The position numbers were made by a program, and so were the translations under genes. Under the pieces are notes generated by a model. The model did not search any database and was not told the origin of the DNA. It was given only the letters and a program-made list of their open reading frames with translations. A stretch of DNA of 64,000 nt, from the NCBI GenBank assembly GCA_002686955.1, contig NYZA01000143.1:17643-81642 (forward strand), read 5' to 3'. Positions 6,770 to 62,060 of this stretch are shown here, piece after piece; the first letter of the stretch is position 1; each line of letters begins with the position of its first letter. The stretch is from Gemmatimonadota bacterium. GTDB lineage: Bacteria; GCA-2686955.

Positions 6770-7348
6770 ATGACCCGAGCGAAATCAACCCGACCCAGAA
6801 TCGCGGTCGGCCTCTGCGGAGCTTCAGGCGCCCAGTACGGAGTCGAGCTTCTGCGGGCGCTCGCCGAGCGCGAGGTCGAGACCCATCTGATCGTGAGCCG
6901 GTGGGCCGATGCGGTTATGCGGACCGAAACCGACACCACCCTCGCCGAGCTGGAAGATCTGGCGGAGGTGACCCACGACAATCACGACATGGCGGCTTCG
7001 CTTTCCAGCTCGAGCTTCCTCGTCGATGGAATGGTCATCATTCCGGCCTCGGTGAAGACGGTCGCCGAAATCGCCGGTGGTTCGGCCGGCACTCTGATCG
7101 CGCGGGCCGCAGACAACATGTTGAAAACCCGCCGCAGGCTCATAGTTTGCATACGAGAAACCCCGATCAGTCTTCCTTGTATCGAAAACTTGCGCACCAT
7201 CATGCTCGCCGGAGGCATCGTTGCTCCGCTCAGCCCGGGTTTCTACCATCGGCCGGCCGACCTCAGCGATCTCTACGCATTCATGGTTGGCAAAGTGCTC
7301 GATATGCTCTACATCGAGAACAGCCAGTTCCGCCGGTGGGGCGAGTAG
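6770..7348 (+). CDS. ubiX: Flavin prenyltransferase UbiX
   Basis: A 192-residue flavoprotein of the UbiX/Pad1 family. It transfers a dimethylallyl group from dimethylallyl phosphate to reduced FMN, making prenyl-FMN, the cofactor that UbiD-type decarboxylases need. Diagnostic pieces are the N-terminal GLCGASGAQYG, the middle PASVKTVAEIAGG, the phosphate-binding ADNMLKTRRRLIVCIRETP, and the C-terminal SPGFYHRP; length matches the family. I take ATG 6770 because a purine-rich GAGAAAGAG lies upstream; ATG 6755, five codons earlier, is the alternative. A ubiD-family gene follows 18 bases later, and the three genes after that are isoprenoid enzymes, so this UbiX most likely serves the anhydromevalonate phosphate decarboxylase rather than quinone synthesis. 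Confidence 0.93.
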   Translation: MTRAKSTRPRIAVGLCGASGAQYGVELLRALAEREVETHLIVSRWADAVMRTETDTTLAELEDLAEVTHDNHDMAASLSSSSFLVDGMVIIPASVKTVAEIAGGSAGTLIARAADNMLKTRRRLIVCIRETPISLPCIENLRTIMLAGGIVAPLSPGFYHRPADLSDLYAFMVGKVLDMLYIENSQFRRWGE

Positions 7349-7366
7349 GTCGGAGGGGAATCACAG

Positions 7367-8683
7367 GTGTCGCTCAGGTCATATCTCGATGAACTGGAAC
7401 GTCTCAACGAGACCGAGGTTGTGACGACTATCGCCGACACTCGATTCGAGATCGCCGGAGTGTTGAAAGCGCTGGAGAACCGACCCGTACACTTCAGAAA
7501 TGTACCGGGTTGTGAATTCAGTGTCGCCGGTAACCTACTGGCCTCCAAGGAAGGGATCGCCCGGCACTTTGGAATCGAAGTCGATCGACTGATACAGTGG
7601 ATCGCCAAGGGAATCGACCAGCCCTCTCCCCCTCGGCGGGTTCGAAGCGCCCCTTGCCAAGAGGTCGAAATGAACGAGATCGACCTCGATCGGCTCCCGA
7701 TCCTTCTTCATGGCCACGACGACGGTGGTCGCTACATCACGTCCGGTGTATGTGTCGCTCGCCACCCCGACCTCGGCCAGAATCTCGACTTCCACCGCGC
7801 GATGCAGATCGGAAAGGATCGGCTGGCGCTGCGGATCGTGCGGCATCGGGACTTCGATCGTTTTCTCCGTGATCAGCAAGAGATGGATGTGGCCATCTGC
7901 ATCGGCAACGGACCGAATGTGCTTCTCGCGGCGGCCACGAGTGTCGCTGGCGGCGGAGATGAGCTCGAGATCGCCAATACGCTCGAAGCGCTCGACGTGA
8001 CGCGCGCCAAGAGCGCCGACCTGTGGATCCCCGCCGATTGCGAGATCGTTTTGGAAGGCAAGGTGCGCCTCGACGACCGCGCATCGGAGGGACCCTTCGT
8101 CGATCTGACCGAGACGCTCGATGTCGTGCGCACCGAGCCGGTGATGACCGTCACGAGGATCACGCACCGTCGCGACGCGATCTGGCAGGCTCTGCTGCCC
8201 GGAGGGCTGGAGCACAAGCTTCTGATGGGCATGCCGAGAGAGCCGACCATCTACAGGAATGTGCGAGAAGCCGGTGTCAATTGTCGCGATGTGAGCATCA
8301 CTCCAGGTGGCTGTTCCTGGCTGCATGCGATCATCAAGATTCGCAAGACCGGCGACGATGATGTCGCAAAAGCCCTCGATGCCGCGTTCGCGGGGCACCG
8401 CAGCTTGAAACACGCCTTCGTAGTCGACGAAGACATCGATATTCTCGATCCCATTGCCGTCGAATGGGCTTTCGCAACCCGGTTTCAGTTCGATCGGGAC
8501 GTGTATCCACGAGAGATCGAAGCGGGATCCAGCCTCGATCCTTCGGCGGAGCCGGGTACGAAACGCACGGCGAAAGTGGGTTTCGATCTCACCGTCCCCT
8601 CCGGGACCGAAAGCGCACGCGAGAAGTTCGAGCATGCGCGCTTCCCCAGGGTTGATCTCAAGCGCTTCTTGGACAGGCAATGA
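7367..8683 (+). CDS. UbiD-family decarboxylase, probable trans-anhydromevalonate 5-phosphate decarboxylase
   Basis: A 438-residue UbiD-family enzyme. Family features seen: GRYITSGVCVARHP with NLDFHRAMQIG after it (prenyl-FMN/metal region), the glycine-rich GNGPNVLLAAATS, the acidic catalytic region DCEIVLEGKV followed by SEGPFVDLTE, and the late VVDEDIDILDPIAVEWA block. Members decarboxylate alpha,beta-unsaturated acids using prenyl-FMN. In archaea the homologous enzyme converts trans-anhydromevalonate 5-phosphate to isopentenyl phosphate. That specific role is inferred from context: ubiX lies directly upstream, both aconitase-X subunits and isopentenyl phosphate kinase directly downstream. 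The GTG start is supported by GGAGGGGAA six bases before it. Its stop overlaps the next ATG (ATGA). A generic aromatic-acid or polyprenyl-hydroxybenzoate decarboxylase is the alternative, but no ubiquinone genes are near. Confidence 0.88.
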   Translation: MSLRSYLDELERLNETEVVTTIADTRFEIAGVLKALENRPVHFRNVPGCEFSVAGNLLASKEGIARHFGIEVDRLIQWIAKGIDQPSPPRRVRSAPCQEVEMNEIDLDRLPILLHGHDDGGRYITSGVCVARHPDLGQNLDFHRAMQIGKDRLALRIVRHRDFDRFLRDQQEMDVAICIGNGPNVLLAAATSVAGGGDELEIANTLEALDVTRAKSADLWIPADCEIVLEGKVRLDDRASEGPFVDLTETLDVVRTEPVMTVTRITHRRDAIWQALLPGGLEHKLLMGMPREPTIYRNVREAGVNCRDVSITPGGCSWLHAIIKIRKTGDDDVAKALDAAFAGHRSLKHAFVVDEDIDILDPIAVEWAFATRFQFDRDVYPREIEAGSSLDPSAEPGTKRTAKVGFDLTVPSGTESAREKFEHARFPRVDLKRFLDRQ

Positions 8684-9858
8684 AGCTGATCGGCCACGAA
8701 GAATCGATGCTCTCCGGCGCCGAAGGAAAGGCCGCACGAAAGTGCATGCAGATCCTGACCGCACTCGGCGAGATCTTCGGCGCGGAGAAGATGATCCCGG
8801 TCGAGACGGTTCAAATCTCGGGAGTTTCTTACGACAATCTGGGCGACGCGGGGCTGGAGTTCTTGCGAGAGCTGGCCGCCGACGGCCGCGCGAAGGTGCC
8901 GACAACACTCAATCCCGCCGGCATGGATACAGAGGACTGGAGGGCGCTCGGCATCCCCGAGGATTTCGCCCGAAAGCAGACCGAGGTCATCGCGGCGTTC
9001 ACCAAGATGGGTGTCGATGCGACCTGCTCCTGCACTCCCTACCTCATCGGCAATCTTCCGAAGCCTGGCGCCCATATCGCTTGGGGCGAAAGCTCCGCCG
9101 TCACCTTCGCGAATTCGGTCCTCGGCGCTCGAACGAACAAAGAGGGCGGTCCTAGCAGCGTCGCGGCGTCGCTAACGGGATGCACGCCGGCATACGGCCT
9201 GCACCTCGACGAGCATCGTCGTCCGAAGGTGCGTGTGATGCTGGAGACCGATCTCGAAACCAAGTTGGAGTTCGGAGCGTTCGGAAAGGCACTGGGGGAA
9301 GCGCTGGACGGCCGGATCCCCTTGATCGAAGGGATCTCGACGCGCCGCTGGGACCTTCTGAAAGCCCTCTGTGCCGCCTTCGCGACCTACGGAGGAGCCC
9401 CGATCTTCCATATCGCGGGGGGAACGAGTGAGCAGTGGAGCCCTCCGGCCGACGCGATTTCGATCGGCCGAGATGAGATCGTCCGGGCCGCGCGGGCGCT
9501 CGATGATGGGGCGGATCGGGTCGATTTCGTCTTCTTGGGCTGCCCTCATCTCTCGCTCGATGAGCTGCGAGAGATCGCGGAGCTGCTCCGCGGCAAGACC
9601 GTCACGAAGGAGCTCTGGCTCGGCGTGGCACGGCGGATCAAAGAGCAGGCCGATGCGGCCGGAATCACCGAGATCTTGGTCGCCGCCGGAGCGAAGATGG
9701 CGTGTGATACCTGCCACGTCGTGGCGCCGCTGAGAGGTCGTTTCGATACCTTCGCGACCAACTCGGCCAAAGGGATCTACTACGGTCGCTCTAAGAACCG
9801 CTTCAAAAGTGTGTTTCGAACAACTGAAGAGTGCATTCGACTCGCGACGGAGAAGTAA
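8680..9858 (+). CDS. Aconitase X large subunit, probable phosphomevalonate dehydratase large subunit
   Basis: A 392-residue catalytic subunit of the aconitase X (AcnX) family. In archaea the two-subunit AcnX enzyme dehydrates mevalonate 5-phosphate to trans-anhydromevalonate 5-phosphate using an iron-sulfur cluster. It begins with the family opening EESMLSGAEGKAARKCMQIL and holds conserved blocks around GESSAVTFANSVLGARTNKE and FHIAGGTSEQW. Candidate cluster ligands are Cys118 (CSCTPYL), Cys288 (FLGCPHLS) and Cys342 or Cys345 (CDTCHVV). Related AcnX proteins include the bacterial cis-3-hydroxyproline dehydratase, usually accompanied by proline-metabolism genes; none occur here. The operon (ubiX, ubiD-like, small subunit, isopentenyl phosphate kinase) argues for the isoprenoid role. 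The start overlaps the previous stop by four bases and the small-subunit gene follows after three. Confidence 0.9.
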   Translation: MKLIGHEESMLSGAEGKAARKCMQILTALGEIFGAEKMIPVETVQISGVSYDNLGDAGLEFLRELAADGRAKVPTTLNPAGMDTEDWRALGIPEDFARKQTEVIAAFTKMGVDATCSCTPYLIGNLPKPGAHIAWGESSAVTFANSVLGARTNKEGGPSSVAASLTGCTPAYGLHLDEHRRPKVRVMLETDLETKLEFGAFGKALGEALDGRIPLIEGISTRRWDLLKALCAAFATYGGAPIFHIAGGTSEQWSPPADAISIGRDEIVRAARALDDGADRVDFVFLGCPHLSLDELREIAELLRGKTVTKELWLGVARRIKEQADAAGITEILVAAGAKMACDTCHVVAPLRGRFDTFATNSAKGIYYGRSKNRFKSVFRTTEECIRLATEK

Positions 9859-9861
9859 AGG

Positions 9862-10251
9862 GTGCGAGGCAGAATCGTCTACGATGGTGTCGCGGAAGGG
9901 CCGGCGCTGGTGTCGACCGAAGCGATCGGTTTCTACGGCGGTGTCGATCCCGATACGGGACGAATCGTCGAGGCCGGGCACCCGCTCGAAGGATCGTCGG
10001 TGGCGGGAAAAGTCCTGGTCTTTCCGCAAGGCAAGGGCTCCACGGTAGGCTCCTACACACTCTATCGGCTCCGCAAGAATGGAGTCGCACCGAGCGCCAT
10101 GATCAACGAGGAGTGTGAAACGGTCGTCGCCGTCGGTGCGATCATCTCCGAGATCCCCTGCGTCGACCAGATCTCCTTGGAACGGATCCGAAGCGGTGAC
10201 CTGGTTCGGGTGAGGGGTAGTGAAGTCATGGTCGAAAGGAGAGAAGGGTGA
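9862..10251 (+). CDS. Aconitase X small (swivel) subunit, probable phosphomevalonate dehydratase small subunit
   Basis: A 129-residue protein of the AcnX swivel-domain family (once DUF126). The N-terminal half carries GPALVSTEAIGFYGGVDP and GHPLEGSSVAGKVLVFP, then the hallmark phosphate/Ser loop GKGSTVGSYTLYRL at residues 57-70, where the Ser is the catalytic base proposed for the family. It pairs with the large subunit to form the active enzyme. In bacterial hydroxyproline dehydratases this domain is often fused; here the two are separate genes, as in most archaea. The GTG start lies three bases after the large-subunit stop, and its TGA overlaps the GTG of the kinase gene, so the three are translationally coupled. 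Confidence 0.9.
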   Translation: MRGRIVYDGVAEGPALVSTEAIGFYGGVDPDTGRIVEAGHPLEGSSVAGKVLVFPQGKGSTVGSYTLYRLRKNGVAPSAMINEECETVVAVGAIISEIPCVDQISLERIRSGDLVRVRGSEVMVERREG

Positions 10252-11066
10252 GCGCCTCCGTCGAAACGGTGATTCTGAAGATCGGCGGCAGCGTCATCAC
10301 GAACAAGGACTCGAACCGATTCGAAATTCGTCGCGATGAAATCGGTCGCATCGCCTCCGAAATCGGTGCCGCGAGAGCCGCCAGGCCGATGCGCCTGGTC
10401 CTTGTACACGGTGCCGGCCCTTTCGGCCACACGATGGTGACGAACTACGGAATCGCCGAAGGGGTTGGGGTCCCGAAAGGAATTGAAGGCTTCGTTAGAA
10501 CCCACAATTCGATGCAAGATCTCAACTACGTACTGATGTGTATCTTGCGCGACAAGGGGCTCCTGGGGTTTCCGATCCAACCCAGCGCCTGCATTCGCCA
10601 GAAGAGACGCGAGTTGATCTCGTTCGATACCGCGATCATCGCCGGTCTCCTCGACCTCGACGACGGAATCGTGCCGATTCTCTACGGCGACATGGTTCTC
10701 GACGAGTCGATCGGAGCAAGTGTCGTCTCGGGAGATGCGATCGTCGCTCATCTCGCGCCCGCTCTCCGAGCCGATCGAGTTCTTATGGGCACCGATGTCG
10801 AGGGCGTGTTCGAGGGCGATCCGAAGACCGATCCCGCCGCCGCATCGATCCCCACGATCAGCGCCGAGAACCTCGATCGGGTGATGGAGTCGGTCCGCGG
10901 CGCGACGACGGTCGACGTCACCGGAGGGATGCAGAAGAAGCTGATCGAGATCCGCGACAAGCTCGGCGGAATCGGGGTCAAGATCTTCGACGCGCTCGCA
11001 CCGGGCAACGTCGAAAGGGCACTCCTGGGTCGCCAGGTAGGAACGGAAATCAGTCTCCGTCGGTAG
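10248..11066 (+). CDS. ipk: Isopentenyl phosphate kinase
   Basis: A 272-residue amino-acid-kinase-fold enzyme that phosphorylates isopentenyl phosphate to isopentenyl diphosphate, the last step of the archaeal-type mevalonate route; IPKs also accept dimethylallyl phosphate. The sequence follows characterised archaeal IPKs along its length: LKIGGSVITNKDS at the N-terminus, VHGAGPFGH with the His that marks IPKs, QPSACIR, VPILYGDMVLD, SVVSGDAIVAHLA, RVLMGTDVEGVFEGDPK, the DVTGGMQKK loop, and PGNVERALLG near the end. Acetylglutamate or uridylate kinases lack the HGAG-FGH His and the QPSA motif. It starts with GTG overlapping the small-subunit stop. Its last 17 bases overlap the end of the convergent O-antigen-ligase gene, closing the operon. 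Confidence 0.93.
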   Translation: MSASVETVILKIGGSVITNKDSNRFEIRRDEIGRIASEIGAARAARPMRLVLVHGAGPFGHTMVTNYGIAEGVGVPKGIEGFVRTHNSMQDLNYVLMCILRDKGLLGFPIQPSACIRQKRRELISFDTAIIAGLLDLDDGIVPILYGDMVLDESIGASVVSGDAIVAHLAPALRADRVLMGTDVEGVFEGDPKTDPAAASIPTISAENLDRVMESVRGATTVDVTGGMQKKLIEIRDKLGGIGVKIFDALAPGNVERALLGRQVGTEISLRR

Positions 11067-47381: not shown

Positions 47382-48076
47382 GCTCGTGGCTTTGGATCGC
47401 GGCGATCTACCTTGGACTCCGTTACTTTGGGTTTTTCGGGCTCGGTGTGCTCCTGGCGGTGGTTCTGCTCGGGCAATGGACCGCCCGTCTCGTGGCGCTG
47501 GCGGCTCAGCGGTCCCGATTCCTGGCGCAACGGAGAGCGGAGCTCGCCAATCCCGCGGACTATGGGGCTCGCCACCAGCTCGGAACGATCTATCTGCGGG
47601 CACGACGCTATGCGAAGGCCGCTCACTATCTCGAGGACGCCCTCGAGCTCATGCGAAAGAGCCCGCACGCGGAACCCGATCCGCAGTTGATCATGGACTG
47701 TGCGCGCGTTCGCTTCGCCCGGAGGGATTTCGCCGGCACGGCGATCTTGGCGGATGAGGTTGCACAGCGGCATGCGGCGCATCGAGTGGGTGACGCCAAT
47801 CTCCTCGCCGGGCGCGCCCATGCCGCCACCGGCGCGTCCAACGAGGCTCTCGTCCATTTCGAGCAAGCGGCTGAACGAGCCCCTTCCTCGGCGGAAGCCG
47901 CCTTCCGGTGGGCGCGCGCACTTGCCGCGCGAGGAGAGGGAAGAAGGGCGTCGGCCGTGCTGCGTGGTTTTCAGACCGCTTCCGCCGGCGCGCCGGCATT
48001 CGTACGCCGCCGCGACCGCTGGTGGCGCCTCGCGATCGTCCTCTTTCCGGCGCTTCGTTTCTTGCCCCTCCGCTGA
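47378..48076 (+). CDS. TPR-containing membrane protein
   Basis: A 232-residue protein with an N-terminal hydrophobic region of one or two helices (SSWLWIAAIYLGLRYFGFFG, then VLLAVVLLG) followed by TPR-type helices: GARHQLGTIYLRARRYAKAA, PQLIMDCARVRFARRDFAGT and LLAGRAHAATGASNEALVHF. It resembles small inner-membrane TPR anchors that hold complexes or act in envelope biogenesis. The GTG start overlaps the NUDIX stop by four bases. The last 106 bases overlap the convergent uvrA, a long overlap which may limit both C-termini from drifting. Confidence 0.7.
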   Translation: MSSWLWIAAIYLGLRYFGFFGLGVLLAVVLLGQWTARLVALAAQRSRFLAQRRAELANPADYGARHQLGTIYLRARRYAKAAHYLEDALELMRKSPHAEPDPQLIMDCARVRFARRDFAGTAILADEVAQRHAAHRVGDANLLAGRAHAATGASNEALVHFEQAAERAPSSAEAAFRWARALAARGEGRRASAVLRGFQTASAGAPAFVRRRDRWWRLAIVLFPALRFLPLR

Positions 48077-51000
48077 TGCTCTCGTAGCGCGGATGCGGTA
48101 TGGGTGCCCGCCTCCATCACCTCCTCCGGAGTGCCGGACGCGACGATCTCACCCCCTTCGTCCCCCGCCTCAGGCCCCATGTCGACCACGTAGTCGGCGG
48201 ACAGCATCACATCGGGGTGGTGCTCTATCGCGATGACCGTGTTGCCACTGTCCACAAGACTTTGAATCACTTCGAGCAGCTTCTTTACGTCAGCCAAGTG
48301 CAACCCTGTCGTAGGTTCATCCAGCAGGTATAGAGTATCGCCCGTCTGAACCCGGGCCAACTCTGAAGCCAGCTTCACGCGCTGAGCCTCTCCGCCGGAC
48401 AGAGTCGTCGCGCTCTGGCCCATGCGCATGTACCCCAAACCTACACGCCCCAAAGTATCGAGCACGCGGTGAATGCGACGGTGATTCTGAAAGAATATCG
48501 TTGCTTCATCGATGTGCATCTCCAGAACATCCGCGATCGTCTTGTCGCGGTAGCGGACTTCCAGCGTCTCGTCGTTGTATCGTCGACCTTTACAAGTGTC
48601 GCATCGAACCCACACATCGGACAAGAAGTGCATTTCGACCAAGGTCGCTCCGGCACCTTCGCAAATCGGGCAACGTCCGTCCGCTCTGTTGAAACTGAAG
48701 CGTCGCGCGGAATAGCCACGTTGACGGGCAAGGCGAGTTCTAGCGAAAAGCTCCCGAATCGGAGCAATCGCGCCGCAATAGGTCGCTGGATTCGATTTTG
48801 GAGTGCGACCGATTGGAGCCTGGTCGATGACCGCCAGCTTCGCCACCGGTTTGGCGTTCCCCGCGGGTTGATCGATCGATACCGTTCCGTCACCTGTACC
48901 TCCGCCCAGCAGCTCCGCAATGGCTGGTCGTATGGTCTCCATCACCAGTGAAGATTTGCCGCTTCCTGAAACGCCGGAAACAACGGTAAAGGCTCCGATC
49001 GGAAGGTCGGCATCGACATTCCGCAGGTTGTGGGTCTCGCAGCCGCGAACTTCGATCTTTCCTCCTATTCCTGGCCGCGTGCCCGAGGGGGGTGCGAGAA
49101 TCTCCCGACCTGAAAGGTAGGCTCCGGTGAGTGACTGGGAATCCCGGGCCAACTCGGCGGGTGAACCGGCCGAAACCACATATCCGCCGGTCTCGCCCGC
49201 ACCAGGGCCAAGATCGATGACATGATCCGCCCGCTCAATCGTGTCGCGATCGTGCTCGACTACGAGAACGGTATTTCCGAGGTCGCGAAGATCCTCGAGT
49301 GTATCGAGCAACCGTTCGGTATCACGTGGATGCAGCCCAACCGTCGGCTCGTCGAGTACATAGATGACCCCCGCCAACTTGTTGCCGATCTGAGATGCGA
49401 GCCGGATCCGCTGTGCCTCTCCACCCGATAGTGTGCTCGACGCTCGATCCAATGCCAAATAGCCTACGCCCACGTCCTCCAAGAACCCGAGCCGAGAAAT
49501 GCACTCCAGAATCGCGTCCCGAGCGATCTCGCTCTCGATTGCACTCAGATCGCCTTCTAGGTGATTGAACCAATCGCCACACTGCGCGACCGTCATGGCT
49601 CCGACCTCCATGATGCTTCGACCGGCGATCGTAACCGCCAGCATTTCGCGCTTCAGCCTCTGCCCCCCACACCCGGTACACACCCGTTCCTTCATGACGC
49701 GCTCGAGCGATTTGGTCCAAGGACCTCCGGTGGAGGCGGAATGCCAGCGCTTCACTAGAGAGACCAACCCCTCCCACTTCATCTCATAGGTGTAGTCCCT
49801 AGAAGCCCGCCTTCGACGTCGCTTTCTTCGGATCCTGTGGACCCGACCATCGTCGCCGTTCAGCAACACCGCTCTCTGATCTTCGCTCAGCTTGCGCCAT
49901 GGCGTTCGCATGGTCGCACCGAGTTGCTCAACCACCGATCGCAGCAGTGGACCGTAGGCGCTGTTGCTGTGGCGCAGCACAAACGCCGGAGCCTTGTCGA
50001 GAGCCGCCAGGATCGGTTTGCCGGGTTCCGCGATCAACTTTCCGACATCCGGCTCCCTTGAAATCCCAAGCCCCGCGCAGTCGGGGCAGGCACCCTGGTG
50101 ACTATTGAAGCTGAACATACGAGGGGTCAGCTCCGATTCCAAATAGCGATCACATTCAACGCATCCCGGGCGGGTCGAAAGCTCTACTCGAAGATCCTCG
50201 CCTTCACGATCCGAAAAGGCCCGGGCGGTGGCGATTCCGCCGGTGATCCGATAGGCACGATCGAATGCTTCGGCGATCCGCCGTCGATTCCGGTCGATGG
50301 CTCGCACCCGGTCAACGACTGCGTCCACCCGGGAGATCGTTCGTGGATCGACTCCTATCTCCTCATCGAGGCGCAGATCTTCATTTCCGACCAGCACCCG
50401 CAGAAAGCCCTCCCCCATGAGGCGTTCTCTCGCATCGACCAATTCCTCGGCGCTTCCCAGCTCGAAACGTGTCGGTCGGCTCGCATCGAAAAGCGGCACG
50501 GTGATGTAGAGACGGCGAGCGGGCGCGACCTGAAGCACTTCGTCCGCGGCTCCCGTTGGGAAGTAAGCCTTCATCTCTCGCCCACATTCCGGACAGTGCG
50601 GCCGTCCGATTCTCGCCCACAGCAAGCGGAGGTAATCGTGTAGTTCTGTGGTTGTCGCGACGGTCGATCTCGGACTTCGCGACGCTCTTCCTTGATCGAT
50701 GGCGATTGCCGGCGCAAGGCCCTCGATCGAATCGACGGGTGGTTTGTCCATCCGCCCCAAGAAGCGTCGCGCGTAGGTCGACAGCGATTCGACGAAACGA
50801 CGCTGCCCTTCAGCGAAGATCGTCTCGAATGCCAAAGATGACTTCCCTGAGCCCGACAAGCCGGTGATAACCGTCATCTTTCCATGGGGAATAGTGACGT
50901 CGATGCCCTTCAGATTGTGGGTTCGCGCCCCTTTGACCTCGACCGATCCACCCGCGACCAATCTCTCCCGCTTCTGTTTGCGAATCGGCGAGGTCTTCGG

Positions 51001-53865
51001 AGAACCATCGAACACACTCCTCAGGAGAGCGGATGTCGGTCCGGCCCCGGACTCGGCGACCGCCTCCGGAGTGCCGGCGGCGACGATCCTCCCCCCTCCC
51101 TCTCCTCCCTCCGGACCCAGGTCCACGATCCAGTCCGCCACCTTGATCACGTCACTATTGTGCTCGATGACGAGCACGGTGTTTCCCGAGGTTACCAGAC
51201 GTTGCAGAGCCGCAATCAACCTGTCCACATCCGCGAAGTGCAGCCCCGTTGTCGGCTCATCCAAAATGTACAGAGTTCTTCCGGTATCGGGGCGCCTGAG
51301 CTCGGACGCCAATTTGACGCGCTGTGCCTCCCCTCCCGACAAGGTCGTCGATCGCTGCCCGAGCTGCATGTAGCCCAATCCCACATCCGCGAGTGTTCCG
51401 AGTGTGCGAGCGATCTTGGGAATGTCCGCGTAGAAGGCGTTTGCTTCATCGATCGTCATGCCCAATACATCGTGAATCGTGCGCCCCTTGTACCGGATCT
51501 CGAGTGTTTCACGGTTGAAGCGCAATCCATCACACTCTTCACATGGTACTTGAACCGAGGCCAGGAACTGCATCTCTACTTCACGAACACCCGCTCCTTT
51601 ACAGTACTCACACCGTCCACCGCTCACGTTGAAGGAGAATCGTCCTGGTTCGTAGCCACGGGCTCGCGATTCCGGAACTTTCGCGAAAAGCGAGCGGATC
51701 TCCGTGAACACTTTTGTGTAGGTCGCGGGGTTGGAGCGCGGTGTGCGACCTATCGGAGACTGATCGATCTCGATGACCTTGTCGACAGCGTCGATGTTGT
51801 CGATTCTGTCATGGTCGCCAGCTTCTTCATGAGCTCCGTGCAGGTGGCGCCTTAGCGCGCGATAGAGGATTTGATCTACCAGAGTGGATTTTCCACTTCC
51901 CGACACGCCAGTGACGGCGATCAAGCAGCTGAGGGGCAGCTCGACATCGATGTTCTTCAGATTGAATTGGCGTGCACCTCTAATCGTTATGGTGCCCTGT
52001 TCAGGCGGTCTTCGCGTCTCGGGCACTTGGATAGATCGGCGTCCCAGGAGATAGTCCGCCGTTTGAGAACGTTTGGCCTGACGAATCTTGGAGTAGCTCC
52101 CACTCGCGACGATGTGGCCGCCATGGACCCCCGCTCCGGGTCCAACATCGATAATGTGATCCGACGATCGCATTGTCTCTTCATCGTGCTCGACGACTAC
52201 GATTGTATTGCCGAGATCTCGGAGAGTCCCCAATGTGTCGAGCAACTTACGGTTGTCTCGCGCGTGCAATCCGATCGATGGTTCGTCCAGAACATAGAGC
52301 ACGCCGCGCAGGCCTGATCCCACCTGTCGAGCCAATCGAATGCGCTGTGCTTCCCCGCCGGACAAACTGCCGGTCGCTCGATCCAATGTGATGTAACCGA
52401 GGCCGACGTCGATCAGGAATCGTAGTCTTGTTCGGATCTCCTTTACGATCTCCGTGCCGATGCTCCGCTCGCGATCGGCCTCGAATCCGAGCTGCTCGAA
52501 CCATCGATCCGCTTCCGTGACGGTCATGCGATTCATGTCGCTTATCACGCGATCCCTGAATCGAACGGCCCTGGCCTCCGGGCGCAACCGTGTCCCATCG
52601 CAGTTGTTGCAGGCTCCCTCGGCCAAGAAACGCGACACTTTGGACCATTCTCCTCCTCCGGCCCAGAGAAGAAAGTGCTCCATGCCTCCCACAATGCCCC
52701 GAAACGCTCGACTGATCTTCCCGGAGACCTTTCGTCCTCGTCCCTCCCAAGCGACATCGAACTCGAGCTCGATCTTCCCCGTGCCCTTGAGCATGACCTG
52801 TCGAGCCTTGGCGGGCAGCTTTCGCCAGGGTGAATCGAGCGAGATCTCGAGATGATCGGCGACTACTTGCAGATCGGAAAGCCGGTATGGCGTATAGAGC
52901 AGCTTGCCGGTGCGGTCCAGATTGGCGAAGGCGCCGCCCGCGATGCTCTTGTCGCCGTCGGGAACGAGTAGCTTCGGATCGACACGCCGTTTCCAGCCGA
53001 GGCCCCTGCAATCCGGGCAGGCTCCGCGAGGCGAGTTGAAACTGAATAGACGGGGTTCGATCTCGGGCAATTCCACGTCGTGCCGCGGACAGGAGCGAAG
53101 AGCACTGAAGGTCGTGAGTCGATTCTCGAGGAGCACCCGAACCTGGCCGCCCGCCCGATCGAGAGCCAAACCGACGCTTTCCACGAGACGGGTGCGTCGA
53201 TCCGGCGCGAGGGGAACGCGGTCGATGATGATCTCGATCGTGTGGCGCTTGTATCGGTCGAGAACAATCTCATCTTCGAGGCGACGAATCTCGCCGTCGA
53301 TCCGCGCGCGAACGAATCCCTCCGTCGCGAGATCCTGCAACTCTCTGCGGTACTCACCCTTGCGATCGTCTACCAGCGGCGCGAGTACGAGAGCGTGTGG
53401 TGGCTTGTTCGAGGGATGCACCACACCCTCAGCCATGGCCAAAATCCTCTGACCGATCTCGGATGGGGTCTGCCCGTCTATGCGGTGACCGCATTCGGGG
53501 CAGTGCGGCACGCCGAGTCGAGCGAAAAGAAGGCGGAGGCAGTCGTAAAGTTCAGTGACGGTGCCGACCGTCGATCTGGGGTTGCGGTTGACCGTCTTCT
53601 GGTCGATCGAAACGGTCGGCGAGAGCCCTTCGACATGGTCGACCCGGGGCTTTTCCATCTGCCCCAGGAACTGCCGAGCGTACGAGGACAACGACTCGAC
53701 GAAACGCCTGTGGCCCTCTCGATAGAGGGTATCGAAGGCCAGGCTCGACTTGCCGGATCCCGACACACCAGTGATGACGGTCAGCGCATCGCGGGGCAGC
53801 GAAACATCGACACCAGCGAGGTTGTGCTCACGGGCTCCACGGATCTGGATCTTGTCGGTCGGCAT
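47971..53865 (-). CDS. uvrA: Double-length UvrA (two complete UvrA units fused)
   Basis: A 1964-residue excinuclease ABC subunit A. Ordinary UvrA is ~940 residues; this holds two full copies in tandem. Unit 1 (1 to ~950): IQIRGAREHNLAGVDVSLP, Walker A GVSGSGKSSLAFDTL, zinc sites CPECG and CPDCRGLG, signature GSLSGGEAQRIRLA, LYVLDEPSIGLHARD, and the C-terminal zinc finger CEYCKGAG...CEECDG. Unit 2 (~960 to end) repeats all: VEVKGARTHNLKGIDVTIP, GLSGSGKSSLAFETI, CPECGRE, CPDCAGLG, a second LSGGEAQRIRLA, CPICEGAG...CDTCKG and a final LLDEPTTGLHLAD. UvrA works as a dimer of two-ATPase subunits in DNA damage recognition; here one chain could act as a built-in dimer. The C-terminus is basic. Confidence 0.93.
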   Translation of the reverse strand: MPTDKIQIRGAREHNLAGVDVSLPRDALTVITGVSGSGKSSLAFDTLYREGHRRFVESLSSYARQFLGQMEKPRVDHVEGLSPTVSIDQKTVNRNPRSTVGTVTELYDCLRLLFARLGVPHCPECGHRIDGQTPSEIGQRILAMAEGVVHPSNKPPHALVLAPLVDDRKGEYRRELQDLATEGFVRARIDGEIRRLEDEIVLDRYKRHTIEIIIDRVPLAPDRRTRLVESVGLALDRAGGQVRVLLENRLTTFSALRSCPRHDVELPEIEPRLFSFNSPRGACPDCRGLGWKRRVDPKLLVPDGDKSIAGGAFANLDRTGKLLYTPYRLSDLQVVADHLEISLDSPWRKLPAKARQVMLKGTGKIELEFDVAWEGRGRKVSGKISRAFRGIVGGMEHFLLWAGGGEWSKVSRFLAEGACNNCDGTRLRPEARAVRFRDRVISDMNRMTVTEADRWFEQLGFEADRERSIGTEIVKEIRTRLRFLIDVGLGYITLDRATGSLSGGEAQRIRLARQVGSGLRGVLYVLDEPSIGLHARDNRKLLDTLGTLRDLGNTIVVVEHDEETMRSSDHIIDVGPGAGVHGGHIVASGSYSKIRQAKRSQTADYLLGRRSIQVPETRRPPEQGTITIRGARQFNLKNIDVELPLSCLIAVTGVSGSGKSTLVDQILYRALRRHLHGAHEEAGDHDRIDNIDAVDKVIEIDQSPIGRTPRSNPATYTKVFTEIRSLFAKVPESRARGYEPGRFSFNVSGGRCEYCKGAGVREVEMQFLASVQVPCEECDGLRFNRETLEIRYKGRTIHDVLGMTIDEANAFYADIPKIARTLGTLADVGLGYMQLGQRSTTLSGGEAQRVKLASELRRPDTGRTLYILDEPTTGLHFADVDRLIAALQRLVTSGNTVLVIEHNSDVIKVADWIVDLGPEGGEGGGRIVAAGTPEAVAESGAGPTSALLRSVFDGSPKTSPIRKQKRERLVAGGSVEVKGARTHNLKGIDVTIPHGKMTVITGLSGSGKSSLAFETIFAEGQRRFVESLSTYARRFLGRMDKPPVDSIEGLAPAIAIDQGRASRSPRSTVATTTELHDYLRLLWARIGRPHCPECGREMKAYFPTGAADEVLQVAPARRLYITVPLFDASRPTRFELGSAEELVDARERLMGEGFLRVLVGNEDLRLDEEIGVDPRTISRVDAVVDRVRAIDRNRRRIAEAFDRAYRITGGIATARAFSDREGEDLRVELSTRPGCVECDRYLESELTPRMFSFNSHQGACPDCAGLGISREPDVGKLIAEPGKPILAALDKAPAFVLRHSNSAYGPLLRSVVEQLGATMRTPWRKLSEDQRAVLLNGDDGRVHRIRRKRRRRRASRDYTYEMKWEGLVSLVKRWHSASTGGPWTKSLERVMKERVCTGCGGQRLKREMLAVTIAGRSIMEVGAMTVAQCGDWFNHLEGDLSAIESEIARDAILECISRLGFLEDVGVGYLALDRASSTLSGGEAQRIRLASQIGNKLAGVIYVLDEPTVGLHPRDTERLLDTLEDLRDLGNTVLVVEHDRDTIERADHVIDLGPGAGETGGYVVSAGSPAELARDSQSLTGAYLSGREILAPPSGTRPGIGGKIEVRGCETHNLRNVDADLPIGAFTVVSGVSGSGKSSLVMETIRPAIAELLGGGTGDGTVSIDQPAGNAKPVAKLAVIDQAPIGRTPKSNPATYCGAIAPIRELFARTRLARQRGYSARRFSFNRADGRCPICEGAGATLVEMHFLSDVWVRCDTCKGRRYNDETLEVRYRDKTIADVLEMHIDEATIFFQNHRRIHRVLDTLGRVGLGYMRMGQSATTLSGGEAQRVKLASELARVQTGDTLYLLDEPTTGLHLADVKKLLEVIQSLVDSGNTVIAIEHHPDVMLSADYVVDMGPEAGDEGGEIVASGTPEEVMEAGTHTASALREHQRRGKKRSAGKRTIARRHQRSRRRTNAGAPAEAV

Positions 53866-60293: not shown

Positions 60294-62060
60294 ATGCCCA
60301 AGACCCTGAGAATCGCGAACTGTAGCGGCTTCTACGGGGACCGCCTCTCGGCGGCGAAAGAGATGGTCGAAGGGGGAGAGATCGATTTTTTGACGGGGGA
60401 CTACCTCGCCGAGCTCACCATGATGATCCTCTTCAGGGACCGGCTGAAAGACCCGAGTCGAGGGTACGCGCGGACTTTCCTGACGCAGATGGAGCAGGTG
60501 CTTGGGCAGTGCGCCGACCGCAACATCAAAGTGATCTCAAACGCCGGGGGGCTCAACCCGATGGCGCTCGCCGAGGAGATCGAAGGGTTGGCGAGAAAGC
60601 TCGGCGTCGCACCGAAGGTGGCCTGGATCGAGGGGGACGAGATCACGGAAAGGCTCGACGAGCTGCAGGCACGGGGCAATCCGCTGGTGGACGGCGCGAC
60701 CGGGCGCCCGCTCTCGGAGCTCGACGAGCGAGTGCTCTGCGCCAACGCCTATCTGGGAGCTTGGCCGATCGTCGAGGCTCTGAAGCGAGATGCCGACATC
60801 GTGGTCTGCCCGCGAATTACCGACACTGCATTGCTGGTCGCGCCCGCGGCCTGGCACCACAATTGGAAACGTGACGACTGGGATCGGCTGGCTTCGGGCA
60901 TCGTGGCGGGACATATTCTGGAATGTGGGACGCAGTGCACCGGGGGTAACTACGCCTTTTTCGAGGAGATCGAATCCCTCGAGAGTCCAGGATTCCCGAT
61001 CTGTGAGATGGACGAAGATGGTTCCTTTACGATCACCAAACATGAGAACACGGGGGGGCTGGTGTCGGAGGGGACGGTAACAGCCCAGCTTCTATACGAA
61101 ACCACCGACGCCCGGTACCTCACGCCCGACGCCGTCGCCCGTTTCGATACGATTCGGCTCGAAGAGGAGGGCCCCGATCGTGTGAGAGTCACGGGGGTAA
61201 AAGGTGAGCCTCCGCCCGAGACACTGAAGGTGGCGATGCTCTATCTCAGCGGCTACCGGAACTCCGGGAGCATTCTGCTCACGGGTCTCGACATCGAGAA
61301 GAAGGCGAGAATCGTCGAGGAGGAGTTTTGGAAGCTGATGGGAGGCAAGGACAGCTTCGATGAGGCACGCGCCGATCTGATCGACTTGACGGAACCGAAT
61401 CCCGGGTCGAACGCGGAGGCCTACGCACGACTGCGTTTCGCCATGCGCGACCGAGATCCGGAAAAGGTCGGGCGCCGGTTTTTTGACAAGATCGTTGAGC
61501 TCGCTCTGTCGAGCATTCCCGGATTCACCGTTCCCACCGGGTTGAGGAAAAAGGCATCGCCATGTGTCTCCTTCTGGGGAGCACTGATCCCGGCCGATGA
61601 GGTGGAGCAGGTAGTCGTCGTCGACGGAGTGAGAATACCGGTGCCGCACACCCAACCCACTACCGAGACGATCGCCATCGAGCCGGAGCCGATCGAAATC
61701 CCCCCACCACCCGGTGGACCGACGAAACCGATTCCGATCGGTCGCGTGCTCGGCTCTCGATCGGGAGACAAGGGGGGAGCCGCGACACTCGGGGTATGGG
61801 GGACGTCGGCGGAGGCCTACTCCTGGGCCGCCGAATACCTGACGGTCGAAAAGGTGAGGGAGCTGATCCCGGAGGCGGAGGAGCTGCGGATCGAGCGCTT
61901 TCTGATGCCGAATATCCGGTCGATCGGCTTTCTCATCGATGGGCTCTTGGGCGAAGGGGCCAGCGCCTCGATCCTCATCGACCCGCAGGCGAAGTCGCTG
62001 GGAGAGTACTTCCGCGCTCGTTTCGCGGATGTGCCGGAAGGGCTGGTATTTGGTGAATAG
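60294..62060 (+). CDS. AtuA-family (DUF1446, acyclic terpene utilisation) protein
   Basis: A 588-residue protein. The long N-terminal domain (to ~460) follows AtuA/DUF1446: LRIANCSGFYGDRLSAAKEM, IDFLTGDYLAELTMMIL, VISNAGGLNPMALAEEIE, LGAWPIVEALKRDADIVVCP, LECGTQCTGGNYAFFEEI, ENTGGLVSEGTVTAQLLYE. The final ~110 residues (IPIGRVLGSRSGDKGGAATLG, RFLMPNIRSIGFLIDGLLGE) are the small AtuA-C domain, fused here. AtuA is required for citronellol/geraniol breakdown in Pseudomonas, but its reaction is unsettled and the family is much wider. No atuC/atuF-type carboxylase genes are near. A terminator follows at 62079. Confidence 0.88.
   Translation: MPKTLRIANCSGFYGDRLSAAKEMVEGGEIDFLTGDYLAELTMMILFRDRLKDPSRGYARTFLTQMEQVLGQCADRNIKVISNAGGLNPMALAEEIEGLARKLGVAPKVAWIEGDEITERLDELQARGNPLVDGATGRPLSELDERVLCANAYLGAWPIVEALKRDADIVVCPRITDTALLVAPAAWHHNWKRDDWDRLASGIVAGHILECGTQCTGGNYAFFEEIESLESPGFPICEMDEDGSFTITKHENTGGLVSEGTVTAQLLYETTDARYLTPDAVARFDTIRLEEEGPDRVRVTGVKGEPPPETLKVAMLYLSGYRNSGSILLTGLDIEKKARIVEEEFWKLMGGKDSFDEARADLIDLTEPNPGSNAEAYARLRFAMRDRDPEKVGRRFFDKIVELALSSIPGFTVPTGLRKKASPCVSFWGALIPADEVEQVVVVDGVRIPVPHTQPTTETIAIEPEPIEIPPPPGGPTKPIPIGRVLGSRSGDKGGAATLGVWGTSAEAYSWAAEYLTVEKVRELIPEAEELRIERFLMPNIRSIGFLIDGLLGEGASASILIDPQAKSLGEYFRARFADVPEGLVFGE

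Follow-up and report, generated by a model that had tools for sequence, protein, structure and literature searches.

The five-gene locus

The window analysed here, a 64,000-nucleotide stretch of a draft Gemmatimonadota genome, contains five closely spaced genes encoding a flavin prenyltransferase, a UbiD-family decarboxylase, the two subunits of an AcnX-type enzyme and an isopentenyl phosphate kinase (Table 1). Identities were assigned with NCBIfam and Pfam profiles, and all five genes score above cut-off. Open reading frames and profiles bear out the gene order that the first-pass annotation had proposed for positions 6770-11066. That annotation had also described 4-base overlaps throughout, which is correct for two of the four junctions; reading from ubiX to ipk, successive genes are 18 bases apart, overlap by 4 bases, are 3 bases apart and overlap by 4 bases. 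The large and swivel domains of AcnX (PF04412 and PF01989) are carried by two adjacent but separate genes. Opposite-strand genes border the operon, one resembling CBS-domain/glutamate-cysteine-ligase proteins and the other O-antigen ligases.

Table 1. Coordinates, strand and profile support of the five genes in the window.
Gene product	Position	Strand	Support
ubiX, flavin prenyltransferase	6770-7348	+	TIGR00421, 192.7 bits (cut-off 108.9); PDB matches PAD1/UbiX
UbiD-family decarboxylase	7367-8683	+	TIGR00148, 331.9 bits (cut-off 244.85)
AcnX type IIb large subunit (AcnX-L), [4Fe-4S] subunit	8680-9858	+	PF04412, 468.1 bits (cut-off 31.5)
AcnX small (swivel) subunit (AcnX-S), catalytic serine	9862-10251	+	PRK03955, 166 bits (cut-off 163)
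Isopentenyl phosphate kinase (IPK)	10248-11066	+	NF040647 equivalog, 216.3 bits (cut-off 120)

As grouped here, the phylum holds one genome besides that of the window (G000), an assembly from the same family but another genus (G001, JALXCG01). All five genes recur there in unchanged order (locus L012, identical with L044) at 61-71% identity, with 70% for ubiX, and this recurrence excludes chance as the source of the arrangement. We infer that the genes are co-transcribed and that their products have the enzyme activities under which they are listed.

Two further genes of the window were recorded. One (47971-53865, minus strand) encodes a protein of 1964 residues in which the UvrA interaction domain and the UvrA DNA-binding domain each occur twice, amounting to two fused UvrA copies. 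The other (60294-62060, plus strand), about 50 kb from the operon, encodes a protein of the AtuA family (acyclic terpene utilisation; 554 bits).

The proposed route and its active-site residues

According to the proposed route, a mevalonate kinase encoded away from the operon would make mevalonate 5-phosphate, which the AcnX heterodimer would dehydrate to trans-anhydromevalonate 5-phosphate. The UbiD protein, with its prenyl-FMN cofactor supplied by UbiX, would decarboxylate this intermediate to isopentenyl phosphate, from which IPK would form isopentenyl diphosphate (IPP) and a type 2 isomerase, in turn, DMAPP. The predicted enzymes, the order of the steps and the cluster cysteines and substrate residues of AcnX type IIb are those of Aeropyrum pernix and most archaea; the present case differs in its bacterial host and in the presence of ubiX, ubiD, acnX-L, acnX-S and ipk in one operon. 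To our knowledge, the known enzymes of the route have been functional in bacterial hosts only under nearly oxygen-free conditions.

The cluster cysteines and substrate contacts of mevalonate 5-phosphate dehydratase have been published, the ligands in ApPMDh being Cys122, Cys297 and Cys356 (PMC8184944; PMC10040528). Their [4Fe-4S] ligand equivalents in AcnX-L are C118, C288 and C345, and nine tested substrate residues are also kept (G48, V49, S50, N53, N78, P79, E137, S138 and K364), so that all 12 of the 12 tested cluster and substrate residues are identical to those of the Thermococcus kodakarensis enzyme (TkAcnX, 7cnr). Ten bacterial AcnX proteins of other types were taken for comparison, and none of the eight that were aligned, all from other families, has the phosphate-binding set. 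The best PDB matches of the two AcnX proteins are the two subunits of TkAcnX, AcnX-S matching the small one. The catalytic serine of AcnX-S and its neighbours are kept (S60, T61 and V62); the position of TkAcnX-S Leu27 is occupied by a tyrosine, which is common in archaeal small subunits. The AcnX pair is thus a predicted mevalonate 5-phosphate dehydratase of type IIb. Signatures common to an archaeal clade of UbiD proteins are likewise present in the window's UbiD protein (HR at 143-144, with R144; EGPFVDLT at 241-248; EH..LMG at 282-288), and they were not found in three other UbiD proteins, one of which is encoded by the same genome. IPK contains the HGAG.FGH motif, as HGAGPFGH, and its best PDB match is the isopentenyl phosphate kinase 3ll9.

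It could be argued instead that the AcnX subunits form a dehydratase of the hydroxyproline type and that UbiD/UbiX is an aromatic acid decarboxylase, with the neighbouring gene of the amino acid kinase family there by coincidence. A cis-3-hydroxyproline dehydratase model does match AcnX at 276.2 bits, and several aromatic decarboxylase models match the UbiD protein, but all of these scores are far under cut-off (700 bits for AcnX; 192 of 650 for UbiD), and the type I cis-3-hydroxyproline dehydratase was rejected on that score and because it is a single chain, where two are encoded here. AcnX-L scores 319.6 bits against TkAcnX and 199 against type I hydroxyproline dehydratases, and its phosphate-binding residues are those of TkAcnX. 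Together with the nesting of AcnX and UbiD in archaeal clades and the state of the isoprenoid genes elsewhere in the genome, where the remaining mevalonate pathway genes are present and DXR, IspH and IspG are without a match, these observations leave the hydroxyproline and aromatic acid assignment very little probability.

Isoprenoid genes in the rest of the genome

The genome G000 is a 4.28 Mb draft in 270 contigs and is 84.5% complete. On contig C256, which also encodes ribosomal protein L21, the genes for a type 2 IPP isomerase, mevalonate kinase and a class II HMG-CoA reductase are consecutive, as are those for an archaeal-type HMG-CoA synthase (527 bits, cut-off 353), a thiolase and a DUF35-like protein on contig C232. 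The first-pass annotation had named HMG-CoA synthase and reductase, mevalonate kinase and IPP isomerase among the genes to look for; all four were found, and all score above cut-off. Every step from acetyl-CoA to DMAPP therefore has a predicted gene in G000. G001 has HMG-CoA reductase and an incomplete mevalonate kinase at a contig end.

Of the MEP pathway enzymes searched for, DXR, IspG and IspH gave no profile match in either of the two genomes of the phylum, although the positive controls worked. The GHMP kinase N-terminal model has one match in G000, which is the mevalonate kinase, and it follows that IspE is missing from this genome too. A chance loss of DXR, IspH and IspG from both drafts, each about 84% complete, is unlikely. 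The earlier reading of the locus as a lower archaeal-type mevalonate pathway is supported, most of the checks proposed with it having turned out in its favour.

The same GHMP search bears on whether a second mevalonate branch, based on a GHMP decarboxylase of the classical or haloarchaeal type, operates in the organism besides AcnX and UbiD. Chloroflexota with a phosphomevalonate decarboxylase and IPK are known (PMC3857490), and the Roseiflexus route described there is, like the one proposed here, bacterial and ends with IPK; it differs in using an ATP-dependent decarboxylase of the GHMP type rather than AcnX and a prenyl-FMN-dependent UbiD protein. The search of G000 with the N-terminal domain, a model that may miss GHMP decarboxylases, returned mevalonate kinase only. 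We give little credence to a second branch.

A gene for geranylgeranylglyceryl phosphate (GGGP) synthase of the PcrB family (L151:8541-9356, on contig C128 of G000) was observed after recA and alaS, and an archaeal-type lipid precursor may be made as well. A family search for glycerol-1-phosphate dehydrogenase found none in G000; its two weak matches look by eye like AroB-type proteins (3-dehydroquinate synthase), for which reason we do not claim an archaeal lipid pathway.

Relatives and descent of the operon

Among named genomes the closest AcnX proteins are those of Aenigmatarchaeota, at 58-62% identity, followed by those of further DPANN archaea, of some Chloroflexota/Anaerolineae and of a few more bacteria. 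In a survey of 386 bacterial genomes across many families, comparably close copies were confined to G000 and G001, the next best scoring 217 bits. The five genes have the window's order in one Aenigmatarchaeota locus (L045; 56-65% identity) and the first four have it in another (L046; 59-68%), with ubiX 59-63% identical in the two; these archaea differ from the host in having genomes of less than 1 Mb. The contig of L046 has archaeal-looking genes, and its genome encodes GGGP synthase and glycerol-1-phosphate dehydrogenase. A further observation was made in the Diapherotrites archaeon SKW153, where a nearly complete archaeal mevalonate set lies in one 10 kb cluster (L116:13-9942) that comprises HMG-CoA reductase (the end of the gene), HMG-CoA synthase, a thiolase, a DUF35-like protein and mevalonate kinase, together with ubiX, ubiD, acnX-L, acnX-S, ipk and IPP isomerase.

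In a joint tree of UbiD, AcnX-L and AcnX-S, the window and G001 form a clade (100/100) that joins first L046 (100/99) and then L045 (100/100) inside a wider archaeal tree. The IPK tree agrees, placing the window lineage with L045 (97/97), and in the UbiX tree the window and G001 fall among the same DPANN set, in a branching order that is not resolved. The UbiD protein lies inside a clade of archaeal acnX-adjacent UbiD genes with Thermococcus homologues and apart from the second UbiD of G000, the references of this tree being archaeal homologues by sequence, with no biochemically tested decarboxylase among them. In the trees that the first-pass annotation had called for, UbiD and AcnX group with archaeal homologues, and not with hydroxyproline dehydratases or other UbiD proteins.

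Since Aenigmatarchaeota are nearest for UbiD, AcnX and IPK, and the draft genome is split into 270 contigs, the contig might be archaeal contamination in a bacterial bin. However, the 81.6 kb contig has bacterial genes around the operon, among them UvrA and an EngA with the bacterial C-terminal KH domain; the composition of the operon is host-like (60-62% GC, against 63% for the window); the operon recurs in a second genus in an independent assembly; and it would make good the absence of the MEP genes. We accordingly consider contamination to have next to no probability.

The simplest account of these trees is that the whole operon was transferred from a DPANN archaeon into an ancestor of this lineage, in an event that would be separate from the transfers into Chloroflexota. 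We infer that transfer ran from archaeon to bacterium and preceded the split of the two genera. A single transfer behind all bacterial copies was considered and rejected, as the constraint to one bacterial clade fails the AU test (p=1.8e-46); the Chloroflexota AcnX and UbiD proteins, a set that may or may not include Candidatus Promineifilum breve, lie elsewhere in the tree than those of the window. Joint arrival of the upper and lower pathways was likewise rejected on the evidence of the mevalonate kinase of G000, which is far from the Aenigmatarchaeota enzyme encoded beside L046 and is not of that source. Identification of the exact donor depends on a pair of draft metagenome-assembled genomes, those of L045 and L046, and AU support is moderate, a tree in which these two are held together without the window lineage being rejected at p=0.023. 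A wider proposal, which we judge somewhat less likely than not, is that small DPANN archaea repeatedly donated the whole pathway to bacteria and that here the copy of an Aenigmatarchaeota-like donor fully replaced the MEP route.

Two loci titled Chloroflexi (L057 and L061) were not counted with the bacteria, since their genomes are 1.0-1.3 Mb. They group with DPANN archaea, and their titles are probably wrong; the L061 genome encodes GGGP synthase and contains a gene resembling that for glycerol-1-phosphate dehydrogenase. In two other bacterial genomes, of 8.9 and 4.7 Mb (L054 and L069), ubiD adjoins AcnX type IIb with no IPK nearby, and neither IspG nor an archaeal-type HMG-CoA synthase was found above cut-off.

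Taken together, we consider it very probable, from sequence comparison, that the operon is a lower archaeal mevalonate pathway acquired from a DPANN-like archaeon and that it would be the sole isoprenoid route of this bacterium. This supports the first-pass annotation, with the qualification that the pathway is already on record for a bacterium of the Chloroflexota. A paper of 2023 still describes the pathway as restricted to archaea (PMC10040528), but a 2026 review states that it is encoded by some Chloroflexota and cites Kanno et al. 2024 for Ca. Promineifilum breve (PMC13001223), by that account likewise a bacterium with the archaeal mevalonate pathway, though of a different phylum. No report of the pathway in the present phylum was found in the open-access literature, a scope outside which most subscription journals fall. 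Ours is thus not the first bacterial case; what it adds is a distinct lineage with its own probable donor and a compact, en-bloc operon.

Isoprenoid supply is essential. That UbiD, AcnX and IPK adjoin DPANN genes in the trees and that none of the MEP enzymes searched for was found suggests that the archaeal route can be moved as a single operon and can take the place of its bacterial counterpart. For isoprenoid engineering, the operon provides a set of bacterial genes for an ATP-saving route, and its descent is relevant to how the mevalonate pathway originated and to the flow of genes out of DPANN archaea.
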